This document shows positions 54,602 to 58,883 of a DNA stretch of 64,000 nt, in pieces. Source of the DNA: Pediococcus inopinatus (lineage in GTDB: Bacteria; Bacillota; Bacilli; Lactobacillales; Lactobacillaceae); assembly GCF_002982135.1 (NCBI RefSeq), contig NZ_CP019981.1, forward strand, positions 1,984,001-2,048,000. The letters are read 5' to 3'. A program made the position numbers and the translations under genes. The notes beneath the pieces are model-generated. The model worked only from the letters and a program-made list of their open reading frames with translations, was not told the origin of the DNA and searched no databases. How positions within the stretch are numbered: the stretch's first letter is position 1; every line of letters begins with the position of its first letter.

Positions 54602-54634
54602 TTTAATCTTTATTTAAAGTAGGGGCTTTAATAT
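54602..54634 (+). promoter_or_regulatory. CiaR-box promoter A
   Basis: TTTAAT (54602) - N5 - TTTAAA (54613) - N10 - TAATAT (54629). The 11-bp period direct repeat directly replaces the -35 and matches the geometry of streptococcal CiaR sites (TTTAAG-N5-TTTAAG). Two more promoters in the window have the same architecture. Confidence 0.8.
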
Positions 54635-54640
54635 GAATTT

Positions 54641-54801
54641 ATTCATTAAGAAAGAAGTGATTTTTTCTCACCTTCCAAATTTGGAAGAAGATGGATATTT
54701 TCCATATGTTCAACTCCCCTGTAAAAATTAACTTACATCATTAAAAGCTATTCAATTAGCTCAAAGACCGAATCATACCGCGAATGTGATTCGGTCTTTT
54801 T
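54641..54801 (+). ncRNA. Predicted CiaR-dependent small RNA A
   Basis: A transcript of about 160 nt is predicted from promoter A to the terminator GACCGAATC/GATTCGGTC plus T run (54766-54801). Inside are a palindrome CTTCCAAATTTGGAAG (54671-54686), a hairpin TGGA...TCCA, an exposed stretch with ACTCCCCT (54713-54720), and a small AGCTA...TTAGCT hairpin. About 130 nt of the 3' part is nearly identical to RNA B at 58.7 kb; differences in the hairpins keep pairing. The only ATG giving a 33-codon frame overlaps the -10, so it is not in the RNA. The anti-Shine-Dalgarno stretch recalls the csRNAs of pneumococcus. Confidence 0.72.
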
Positions 54802-54838
54802 CTGTCCAAAGATCACCAGAGCCAACGTAGTGTCACGT

Positions 54839-56997
54839 TTAATCGTGTTTACTTTGTCGCCAGGCAATAAACGAATCCCAAACAACAAAAATAATTCCAC
54901 CAATAATTAACCAACGTGATACCGGATTTAAAATGATACGCTGCCAAAACGATCGTTTGTGAACTTGAATTTTTAAGATCCCCAACCCCGCGGCTGGCAT
55001 TGTTAAAGTTCTCGCCTGATTCTTTTGTAATCGATAACCTAACGGAGCAGCAATTTTAAATGTGTCACCGGTTTTGACTTGAACAAAGACCTGCTTAATT
55101 TGTTTGTGACCTTGTAAATAATTAATTGTGACGCCTTGTAAACTCGGTCGTACCCACATATTGACGTCGGCGTTGGCCTGATTAGTAAATGTGTAGGAAT
55201 CAGGAGCCTCTTTTGTAGTTGTATACCCAGTAGTCGAAGCATTACTGAGATCGAAAGCCTGTCCCACTTTTCCGCTAATTGGTTCTGTGCCAACAATTTT
55301 ATTCGTTTTTTTAATGCGATAAACTAATTTGGCGCTAGTTTGTTTGGGCGTCTTTTTTACATGAATTGTGATAGATTGATTTGCGGCGTTTGTAAAAGTA
55401 TAGCTTTGCGGATTATTAGTAACTGTTGTGTAGCCTCCAACGGAAGCCTGACTGATATTAAACGTGCTACCGACATTACCACTAATTGGTTCAGTTCCGA
55501 CCTGCTTGCCTGATTCGTCAACATAACGTAGATAAGCTGTTTTCATAGTGGTCGCAGCGTGAACGGATTTTGATTGAAAAGTTTTTAAGACTTGGCTGTG
55601 GAAATGGTTTAACCATTGGTAGGTTCGCCAAGTAATGCTCTTTCGATTGATTGGCACCTTGGCAGGTGATAACGTATTATCGATAGTGACCGATTTAAGG
55701 CCGTAATAGCGCGCCATCCAAACGTTAAAACACTGCTTATTAGGCTTGCCAGGACTAACATAGGTTGAAGAAAGATACATATTATGATCATCAGTGACAG
55801 GTGGCATGCCTGGGACCTTTGCGTGCATGATATTATGCTTGTAATCAGTTCGGGCAATGGTGTCGCCGGCTTTCCAATAAGTAAAGGATTGGTAATTAGT
55901 TTTCACGGCATTGTCATAAATGGGAATGCTAATAAAGGCAATGATTATTGTCGCAATAACTGGCAGTATACGCGGTAACCAATAATTTTGTCTGAGTTTA
56001 GCATGATCGTAAAGAAGACTTAAAAGGGCGATGATAAAGTAAACATTGGGGCAAAAAAATACACGACTAAGAATTTGTGGGGAAACAACTAAAGCTACAA
56101 TCCCTAAAAATCCACCAACCGCATAAATTACACCGGCAAAATAGCTACGTTGTTCGTGCCATTTAAAATCACGCCCGTAAGCATGGTGCTGGATGTATAA
56201 ATAACTGGCTAATAAAATTAAAACTAAAAGTAATGTCCCTGAATATTTAAGTGTGCCCCTAATTAAGCTAGCGATGTCGAATTGATCACCACGAACGGCC
56301 ACTTGGTTCATGCCAGAAATAACTAAGACAATAAAACTGACTGCACCAGAAAGGCCGCCAGCCCATTTCCAGCCGAGCTGACTATTTTTCCAATCAAAAA
56401 TAGTAAAAACAAAGGCGACGAATAGGGTTAGGGGAGCTGTGTTTTCGTTTGTACCACCGGCCAAAAAGCCAAGGATCAGCATCCCAATAAACATTAAACG
56501 GGGATGCTTGGCATGGTAGTTAAAGCGGTAGGGTAGTAAGAAACCTAGGTAAATTAGTGCTACCCAAAGATAGTTAAAACCACCAGATAGCCATAAAATT
56601 GAAGTGCCAAAGTCAGGTAAGCAAATCCACATCAAGGCAAAAGTCAAAGCTAGGTAGCTGACCCGAAGCTTTTTAAGTCGTCCAAAAACATGAATATTGA
56701 TCAATAGACCTACTAAAACGTAAACGACGCTATTGGCAATGTTATAGACTGATTTTGGAAACTGCATAAATAACTGCACGCCTGTATGAGCAACAAAACG
56801 GCCATTATTGAGGCGGGTGTGATTTTGAATAGACTGGATTAAATCTAGTGGATTATGAATGCCACGTAAATGTTGCGTTGGCCACTCCCCTTGAAAGAAA
56901 AAGTGGTAAAGATAATCATCGGCCGAATAGCCGGTATAATCGTTTAATTGTTTAAATAAAATGTAGACAAAAAATATAATTATGCCAAAACCGATAA
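54839..56997 (-). pseudogene. DUF6056 membrane protein with MucBP domains, interrupted by IS3
   Basis: The intact gene would encode about 730 residues: roughly ten membrane helices with large loops (DUF6056-type, [22 protein letters not shown]), then two MucBP domains ([16 protein letters not shown] and [17 protein letters not shown]), a third beta domain and a C-terminal membrane helix. The IS3-type element at 56998-58495 splits it after codon 11. The missing 5' end lies at 58496-58529, with GTG start and readable MNKKLLYLAR, joining in frame to [11 protein letters not shown] start inside the IS could at most give an artificial N-terminus. Confidence 0.8.
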
Positions 56998-57050
56998 TGA
57001 AGTGAACCCCCAAGATTGGACAGATAAAATCTAATCTTGGGGGTTCTTTT

Positions 57051-57587
57051 ATGGTTAAATTTAATTTTGATTTCAAAGTGAAAGTAGTAACTGAATATTT
57101 AGGTGGTCTGCCCGTTAATTCATTAGCACACAAATACAGGATTGGTAGTAGTGCCACAGTTTTAAATTGGATTCAAAGATATGAGAAATTTGGCCTTAAC
57201 GGTCTTAAACGCAAAGCAATGGATTTAGAATATGCTAGCCAGTTCAAAGTCGATGTATTAAACTGGAGAAAACAAAATCAGGCCTCGCTTCCAGTAACTG
57301 CCTTACATTTTAATTTATCCTCGCCGAGTACCATTTGGCAATGGGAAAGTCGGTTTAAGGCATTAGGAATTGTGGGTCTAGAGCGAAAGCGAGGCAACGC
57401 CAAGAACATGGTAAAACACAAGAATAAAAGTCGCAAACCCATTGTCCAAAAGGACAATTCCACAGCCAAAGAGGATTTAAAACAGCTTCAAAAAGAAAAT
57501 GAAATGTTAAAGATTGAGAACACCTACCTAAAAAAATTAGAGGCCTTAACTCGGAAAAAATCAGTACAAAAGAAATCTCAGAAATAG
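57051..57587 (+). CDS. IS3-family transposase OrfA (IS150 group)
   Basis: A 178-residue protein with two helix-turn-helix units ([20 protein letters not shown], then [10 protein letters not shown]; and [16 protein letters not shown]) and a C-terminal leucine-zipper-like coiled coil ([20 protein letters not shown]). Typical OrfA of the IS150 group, which binds the IS ends. Its frame contains A AAA AAA at 57530-57536, a -1 frameshift heptamer leading into OrfB. Confidence 0.92.
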
Positions 57588-58465
57588 CCATCGAGTTAAG
57601 GCAACTATTCCAAACTTCTATCAAACTGATTCTTAAAGTAATCCAAATTCCACGCAGTACCTATTACTACACTCAGAGTCATGAGAGACGTAAATTTGAT
57701 GATGACCAGATTATTCAAGCAATAGACGAGATTCGCCAAAAAGATCCAAAATACACCAAAAAATACGGCTATCGAAGACTTACAAATGCATTACATGATT
57801 TAGGATTTAAAGTTAATCATAAACGCGTTTTGCGAATTATGCAGGAACACGGGTGGTTGTGTCATGCCTTTAATCGACAAACCAAAAAATATAATTCATA
57901 TAAAGGTTTAGTGGGTAAAATCGCCGCTAATCGCTTAAAGCGACGCTTCAAAACCGATAGACCTTATCAAAAGCTCGTCGCAGACGTTAGTGAATTCAGA
58001 TATGGAAACATGGGAATGAACGAACGAGTTTACCTCGAACCAGTTCTTGATTTGTTTTCTGGAGAAATTCTAGCATTCAATATTAGTGAACATCCAACAG
58101 TTAAATTCGCAATTAAACCGCTTAAAGAGGCTTTAGAAAAGCTACCAAAACTAAATTACCGGACAACAGTCCATACTGACCAAGGCTTTCAGTATCAACA
58201 TCGACACTGGCAGCAGGTTTTAAAGCAACATCACGCTTATCAAAGCATGTCACGTAAAGCAACTTGTCTTGATAATGCGGCGATGGAGTCATTCTTTCAC
58301 ATTATGAAAGCTGAAATGATGGATGAACATTTTGAAGATAAAGCTAGCTTAATCCAAGCAATGACCGAATGGATAGGTTTTTATAATAATCGTCGAATTA
58401 AAACAAAATTGAACGGCAAGTCCCCGGTAAAATACCGAGAACTCGCCGTTCAGAGAGCAGCATAA
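57533..58465 (+). CDS. IS3-family transposase OrfB (rve domain), via -1 frameshift
   Basis: The -1 frame runs about 310 residues: HTH_21 region (KYTKKYGYRRLTNAL), then the integrase core with all catalytic acids, Asp in KLVADVSEF, Asp in VHTDQGFQY and Glu in NAAMESFFHIMKAE (DDE with normal spacing). It should be made as an OrfAB fusion through the slippery A-run at 57530. Independent starts exist only further in. The frame is undamaged, so the IS is potentially active. Confidence 0.9.
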   Translation, partial: KIRGLNSEKISTKEISEIAIELRQLFQTSIKLILKVIQIPRSTYYYTQSHERRKFDDDQIIQAIDEIRQKDPKYTKKYGYRRLTNALHDLGFKVNHKRVLRIMQEHGWLCHAFNRQTKKYNSYKGLVGKIAANRLKRRFKTDRPYQKLVADVSEFRYGNMGMNERVYLEPVLDLFSGEILAFNISEHPTVKFAIKPLKEALEKLPKLNYRTTVHTDQGFQYQHRHWQQVLKQHHAYQSMSRKATCLDNAAMESFFHIMKAEMMDEHFEDKASLIQAMTEWIGFYNNRRIKTKLNGKSPVKYRELAVQRAA

Positions 58466-58682
58466 ATATTTGTCCAATTTTATGGGTTCACTTCATAATC
58501 CGTGCTAAATATAACAATTTTTTATTCACGATAAACGCACCTATTCTGTCTATTAAACCGATTTTAATGTTTCAATTAATTGTAGCATAAGGATGATATC
58601 ATAAATGCATAAATTACGTGAAAAGTCGTAGCTTGCAGGCTTTTCCTTCTGTATAAAAAGAAATTTGGATTCTTTTGTTACT

Positions 58683-58715
58683 TTTAATCTTCGTTTAAAG
58701 TCGGCGTCATATTAT
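58683..58715 (+). promoter_or_regulatory. CiaR-box promoter B
   Basis: TTTAAT (58683) - N5 - TTTAAA (58694) - N10 - TATTAT (58710), the same geometry as promoters A and C. Confidence 0.8.
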
Positions 58716-58721
58716 GAATAT

Positions 58722-58883
58722 ATTCATTAAAGAAGGAGGCGGGTTTTTAAAACCTTCCAAATTTGGAAGATGATGGAATATTTTCCATATGTTCAACTCC
58801 CCTGTAAAAATTAACTTACATTATTGAAAGCTATTTATTTAGCTTATAGACCGAATCATACCGCGAATGTGATTCGGTTTTTT
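58722..58883 (+). ncRNA. Predicted CiaR-dependent small RNA B
   Basis: Paralogue of RNA A with the same order of parts: CTTCCAAATTTGGAAG palindrome (58753-58768), TGGAA...TTCCA hairpin, ACTCCCCT (58796-58803), AGCTA...TAGCT hairpin, terminator GACCGAATC/GATTCGGTT with T run. The 5' ~35 nt differ, and the rest is strongly conserved, including unpaired parts. A short ATG-starting frame (14 codons) exists but is not kept in RNA A. Confidence 0.72.

Follow-up and report, generated by a model that had tools for sequence, protein, structure and literature searches.

The small RNAs (sRNAs) closest to those reported here are the cia-dependent sRNAs (csRNAs) of Streptococcus, which occur as several siblings per genome, each with its own box and terminator, and the LhrC RNAs of Listeria, a family included in Rfam whose targets include oppA-type genes. 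LhrC1-5 of Listeria monocytogenes are multicopy, controlled by a two-component system and carry a UCCC motif (PMC4132741), and tandem csRNAs occur in S. sanguinis (PMC8186281). In a 64,000-nucleotide stretch of the Pediococcus inopinatus genome (contig NZ_CP019981.1, hereafter the window), we found a paralogous pair of units of about 160 nt each, at 54602-54803 and 58683-58882, next to a cluster encoding an ABC transporter, a response regulator and a histidine kinase. We favor the explanation that these units are two sibling trans-acting sRNAs of a CiaR-type two-component regulon, which we consider likely. The explanation draws on computed results, namely the sequences, their copies, their synteny, a shared box, a regulator of the CiaR clade and an excess of start regions strongly complementary to the RNA core.

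As for csRNAs, the Pediococcus sRNAs are siblings that each possess a box and a terminator, the direct repeat has an N5 spacing and lies N10 from the −10 element, the RNA is short, the regulator groups with CiaR, and an anti-Shine-Dalgarno (anti-SD) sequence goes together with an anti-start-codon logic. In the csRNA box, NTTAAG-N5-TTTAAG, both repeats end in a G that is described as extremely important for CiaR activation (PMC3091779), whereas the repeats end in T and A at the Pediococcus sRNAs and in T and C at the cluster. The [A/C]UCCUAAA[A/C] nonamer conserved in nearly all csRNAs (PMC4507080) is absent here, the Pediococcus core being ACUCCCCUGUAAAAA. Also unlike csRNA genes, the Pediococcus sRNA genes stand beside the regulator cluster, this cluster includes an ABC transporter, and the recognition helix of the regulator reads VVNIYISNLRRKL. 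The missing key G, the missing nonamer and the different recognition helix mean that these sRNAs cannot be classed as csRNAs. An earlier note on this DNA had suggested a csRNA-type regulon; its sibling RNAs, shared box and CiaR-clade regulator stand, while the key G, the nonamer and the CiaR helix VVEVYVSKVRKKL are lacking. The multicopy organization, the proposed two-component control and the UCCC motif recall LhrC, and this motif is present in the Pediococcus core, where its pairing with Shine-Dalgarno (SD) regions is predicted. Unlike the Pediococcus sRNAs, LhrC is under LisR (LisRK), its hairpin layout differs from that of the Pediococcus units, and no Rfam family was found in the window at the gathering score.

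The two units share the promoter TTTAAT-N5-TTTAAA-N10 to the −10, as the earlier note had claimed. Both units, the third box, the cluster genes and the 108-aa gene described below are on the plus strand. Our pattern scan of the window for the box returned three matches against a shuffle mean of 0.05. The promoter of sRNA 1 (54602-54634) consists of TTTAAT (54602-54607), TTTAAA (54613-54618) and the −10 element TAATAT (54629-54634), and that of sRNA 2 (58683-58715) has the same repeats followed by TATTAT. The third box, CTTAAT-N5-TTTAAC-N10-TAAAAT (59139-59171), lies upstream of the cluster permease, and P. damnosus, P. ethanolidurans, P. cellicola and P. parvulus all retain it. Neither sRNA promoter was listed by a consensus sigma-70 scan, as expected because they have no −35 element. 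The bodies extend over 54641-54803 and 58722-58882, with starts predicted about 7 nt past the −10; they are 86% identical, score 211 and 199 bits with a covariance model, and are the only two in the 2.31-Mb genome. A 98-bp tandem repeat of 2.4 copies (99% match) occupies 58885-59120 and separates the terminator of sRNA 2 from the third box.

The third box, unmentioned in the earlier note, heads a cluster made of an FtsX-type ABC permease (59201-60661, 486 aa, PF02687), an ABC ATPase (60809-61465, 218 aa), an OmpR-type response regulator (61575-62261, 228 aa) and a histidine kinase (62261-63529, 422 aa). The earlier note had recognized a CiaRH-like system here, and our maximum-likelihood tree of 40 rows bears this out: the window regulator falls with the CiaR regulators of group f4/g43 with support 100/99, while the six OmpR-type paralogues from the same genome, on long branches, all lie outside the CiaR clade. 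We take f4/g43 as Streptococcus because five of its seven examined regulators carry exactly VVEVYVSKVRKKL, and the other two an isoleucine variant; VVEVYVSKVRKKL is the CiaR recognition helix printed in Table 1 of PMC3091779. The window regulator is 50-53% identical to these seven, and an order-wide search gave f4/g43 matches at mostly 49-53% identity, the next regulator of its own genome reaching 38%. Its helix is identical to that of CiaR at 7 of 13 positions. The kinase is about 30-34% identical to kinases beside Streptococcus CiaR: residues 14 to 416-421 align at 29.6-32.4% to five of the seven kinases adjoining f4/g43 regulators, and the remaining two align partially at 33-34%. The system differs from streptococcal CiaRH in the recognition helix of the regulator and in the ABC permease of the cluster. 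No permease relative was found near three examined f4/g43 regulators, at two of which distant ABC ATPases (29-31%) lie within about 5 kb. PMC3091779 reports CiaH relatives as absent outside streptococci; contrary to that statement, related kinases occur at the Pediococcus cluster.

Real sRNAs could also be under other control, the repeat belonging to another OmpR-type regulator or being an A+T-rich promoter element copied along with the unit, which we regard as unlikely. The genome holds six further OmpR-type regulators, the box deviates from the CiaR consensus at the key G, and the short box core is not enriched genome-wide (33 matches versus 43 for the reversed control). Furthermore, a one-mismatch box at G000:C1:326694, upstream of an oppA-type paralogue, was rejected as a candidate fourth regulon member; this repeat lies inside the −35/−10 spacer of an ordinary promoter and is lost in several relatives. 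On the other hand, when two mismatches are tolerated the extended box has 14 matches genome-wide and its reversed form 7, and the only three perfect matches of the box are those of the two sRNAs and of the regulator's own cluster. Box-like repeats also recur at CiaR-clade regulators in other genera. In the loci of 13 such regulators, about 19 kb each, the box pattern with at most one mismatch has 17 matches, of which we counted 10 within 150 nt of the regulator start (7 reading into the regulator and 3 away from it). In one genome of family f3 the box stands upstream of the permease, which is divergent to the regulator; this divergent arrangement is also seen in the Pediococcus genome G005. 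A box before the permease is found in Loigolactobacillus too, and in less exact form in Secundilactobacillus and Leuconostoc.

The identity of the terminal bases tracks the recognition helix in this survey, which also argues against another regulator. Where the helix contains VVEVY or VIEVY, a G ends the first repeat in seven loci, whereas with VVNIY (Pediococcus, Secundilactobacillus and Leuconostoc) no box ending in G was seen. G005 is mixed, with a VVEVY helix, T in the first repeat and G in the second. Locus L311 (g13) has a non-G box, and the Loigolactobacillus box ends in C then G, with no CiaR-type regulator within the flanks covered. Recognition helix and box thus appear to have changed together, an apparent pairing drawn from few lineages and from boxes picked by pattern. 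Three loci outside Pediococcus are worth recording. At L314:8048-12385, in an f3-family genome, a CiaR-clade regulator and kinase are divergent to the same permease-ATPase pair, with TTTAAG-type boxes on both sides. In two genomes of another genus of Lactobacillaceae (g4; L308:9728 and L309:9834), TTTAAG-N5-TTTAAG without mismatch faces away from the CiaR-clade regulator, toward a neighboring gene.

A covariance search of Lactobacillaceae, which the earlier note had proposed as a check, was run with a model built from seven copies and revealed further copies in Pediococcus only. The RNA is present in 5 of 12 Pediococcus genomes, and none was found outside this genus among the 397 family genomes searched, under stricter filters with which weak matches can be lost; no plasmid matched. 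A weak match in Loigolactobacillus (L068, E 0.023) was rejected, as by eye it corresponds to a coding end followed by an ordinary terminator. In the relatives, the copies adjoin the same permease-ATPase-regulator-kinase cluster. P. damnosus has two tandem copies immediately 5′ of the cluster. In P. ethanolidurans four copies precede the cluster one after another, two of which include an N at a point where sequence ends or is joined, and a fifth, divergent copy lies on the far side of a large membrane-protein gene; a relative of this gene (80% identical) likewise separates the copies in the window. P. cellicola has one copy before the cluster, with box and body separated by other sequence, and in P. 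parvulus fragments of the unit lie at the ends of two contigs. The permease is 80-91% identical in these four species, and all five sRNA-bearing genomes carry it, while G005 has the permease without the sRNA. The transporter is more widely distributed than the sRNA, since permease relatives occur in 133 of the 397 genomes and in 18 of 40 genera. As for the surroundings of the units in the window, the relative that separates the copies is a gene for a DUF6056/MucBP membrane protein on the minus strand (about 54839-56983), an insertion element with a helix-turn-helix and an integrase-core (rve) open reading frame (ORF) sits between this gene and sRNA 2 (57051-58465), and an ISL3-family transposase gene is found at 51651-52940.

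Both copies fold better than all 200 of their shuffles (z of −6.5 for copy 1 and −3.8 for copy 2), each into four predicted short hairpins and a terminator. In an alignment of 10 copies, two of them partial, standard pairs make up 96.1% of pair cells versus 93.6% after shuffling. The strong terminator claimed earlier is well founded: that of sRNA 2 (58848-58880) was listed by our terminator scan, that of sRNA 1 (54763-54802), missed by this simple scan, is visible in the fold as a hairpin and T-run, and all four compensated pairs of the alignment fall within the terminator. Hairpins 3 and 4 are nearly invariant. Instead of the three conserved hairpins first described there are four besides the terminator, of which hairpins 3 and 4 are retained together with the terminator in a free consensus fold; this fold puts a different stem in place of hairpins 1 and 2, which comparison therefore does not establish.

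The core of the RNA is reverse-complementary to a translation start, in agreement with the anti-SD logic first suggested. In sRNA 1 the anti-SD sequence ACTCCCC (54713-54719) lies inside the conserved CATATGTTCAACTCCCCTGT and is predicted to be exposed, with an unpaired probability of 0.92; in five other copies the mean for ACUCCCC ranges from 0.79 to 0.90. Each of the nine aligned rows that include the longer strand CAUAUGUUCAACUCCCCUGU keeps it without change, in contrast to the variable 5′ part; read as the reverse complement, this strand holds an entire start region, AGGGGAGUUGAACAUAUG, of the form AGGGGAG-N8-AUG. In the P. parvulus unit at L019:1-85, ACTCCCCTGTA in the loop of hairpin 4 forms a second anti-SD motif; both contigs end inside the unit.

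We scored a 49-nt core (54688-54736) against start regions chosen by a simple script in two samples, the window plus 400 kb (415 starts) and a further 400 kb (356 starts), and 7 of the 771 starts pair at −30 kcal/mol or lower. The first sample contributes 5 of 415, against a mean of 0.19 for shuffled cores, none of 120 reaching 5, and 0 of 379 internal SD-ATG look-alikes; the second contributes 2 of 356, against a shuffled mean of 0.13, with 1 of 120 reaching 2. As an outside control we took 92 loci of other genomes in which the sRNA is not known; among those of low GC (under 0.42), 0 of 611 start regions pair this strongly (Fisher p 0.017 against 7 of 771). The sampled DNA thus holds an excess of start regions with strong complementarity to the core. 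The best-scoring predicted target is a 108-aa gene without Pfam family (16693-17019), whose SD-AUG region pairs at −35.2 kcal/mol. The other six predicted targets are two SBP_bac_5 lipoproteins (oligopeptide-binding type), a DUF956 protein, a protein of DNA polymerase III alpha type, a VTT-domain membrane protein and a phosphopantetheine carrier, which we take to be DltC-like; for the latter the script picked an upstream start, and the pairing spans the SD of the likely ATG. The short pattern AGGGGAGT-N3-10-ATG has 7 matches (1 for the reversed control), of which 2 are the sRNAs, two begin ORFs of 24 and 11 aa, and three begin long ORFs that presumably encode an integral membrane protein, a cation-efflux-like protein and a GalU-like protein.

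The excess of complementary start regions also bears on whether the units are decaying duplicates or repeat elements that have no present function and were spread by tandem duplication, which appears quite improbable. The variable copy number (up to 5, including partial copies), the P. ethanolidurans copy broken at an N, perhaps by assembly, the P. cellicola body apart from its promoter and the narrowness of the family would fit such decay, but decay would not account for an anti-SD stretch constant in nine aligned rows beside a varying 5′ part, nor for compensated changes in the terminator. That the units code for a small peptide instead of acting as RNAs is very improbable: although all eight copies translated contain a 12-codon frame starting MFNSPV, whose variants include one synonymous change (in 2 copies), this frame has no SD, its start codon lies within a predicted hairpin stem, its amino acids change in copy 2 as well as in the divergent copy of P. 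ethanolidurans, which has also lost the stop, and no frame longer than 12 codons is common to the eight copies, in keeping with the earlier description of bodies without a conserved reading frame. An antisense reading was rejected too; an SD-AUG is present on the reverse strand, but by eye the frames are not alike between copies.

Under the explanation that we favor, two sibling trans-acting sRNAs of a CiaR-type regulon, the active kinase (62261) would lead the response regulator (61575) to bind the 11-bp-spaced repeats at 54602, 58683 and 59139, and the regulator would switch on both sRNAs as well as its own ABC-transporter and regulator cluster, as a feed-forward or autoregulatory circuit. 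Each sRNA transcript would stop at its own terminator, and the strand CAUAUGUUCAACUCCCCUGU would pair over the SD and start codon of several mRNAs, including those of the SBP_bac_5 lipoproteins, thereby blocking ribosome loading. Transcription of the units, binding by the regulator and repression are steps that we infer, and by analogy the inducing signal is probably envelope stress.

Several observations weigh against this interpretation. The earlier note had both copies exposing ACUCCCC, which holds for copy 1; in copy 2 the anti-SD (58796-58802) is predicted to be partly paired with GGAGGCGGG, near the 5′ end of the same RNA, with an unpaired probability of 0.39. The anti-AUG triplet CAU has an unpaired probability of only 0.03-0.33 across 7 copies. 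At the tolerance used, 4 of the 13 surveyed loci have no box by the regulator, including 2 of the 3 f4/g43 loci. Between the ATPase and regulator genes (61466-61574), a hairpin followed by T-rich sequence, seen by eye, may separate transcription of the regulator from the transporter and the third box. Concerning the targets, the second sample shows no excess at −26 (3 starts; 23 of 120 shuffles reach 3), and the excess is weak against all other loci including those of higher GC (5 of 1614, p 0.056). Neither the best single energy (1 of 120 shuffled cores equals the real minimum and 2 of 60 reach −32.5) nor the mean energy (15 of 120 shuffled cores are as low in the first sample) is exceptional. 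The first sample was not blind for the oppA-like gene, because this target was known before its stretch was placed. The start of this candidate target pairs at −32.5, and its orthologues in three other Pediococcus species pair less well (−23.1, −23.2 and −23.8). Finally, a 17-nt anti-start complement with up to three mismatches has 4 matches, two being the sRNAs and one the oppA-like start, and shows no excess because the reversed pattern gives 7. Taken together, the sRNA pair is probably functional and linked to the regulator, would act like csRNAs, and represents a new family so far found in part of Pediococcus.

The name CiaR for relatives outside streptococci is already in print and in databases, two sources labeling such relatives CiaR. 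In L. rhamnosus, ciaR is among the genes lowered under osmotic stress (PMC8656396), and a review uses the name CiaRH for lactic acid bacteria generally (PMC12839946). Both csRNAs and CiaRH are nevertheless regarded as streptococcal, and a csRNA inventory table published in 2021 lists Streptococcus only (PMC8186281). The literature matches listed, mostly open-access, contain no report of such RNAs in Lactobacillaceae, as the earlier note had supposed, although the host that it called a lactobacillus is a Pediococcus.

We tentatively propose a broader reading, to which we give somewhat less than an even chance: outside Streptococcus, CiaR-type regulators of lactic acid bacteria would have acquired sibling anti-start-codon sRNAs independently, and in the lineage of Pediococcus a shift of the helix from VVEVY to VVNIY would have gone along with replacement of the terminal G of the box by T, A or C. 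In this reading the sRNA core mirrors a complete SD-spacer-AUG start, and therefore one RNA family could silence a gene set that includes peptide-binding lipoproteins. The difference in predicted fold, if real, would mean that the two sibling sRNAs differ in readiness, and because helix and box seem to have changed as a pair, the DNA specificity of the regulator can be tested directly. Our analysis also supplies a list of predicted targets in Pediococcus, a food-associated model. If true, the possession of sibling sRNAs by a CiaR-clade regulon in Pediococcus would imply that this control logic either predates the streptococci or arose beside them.

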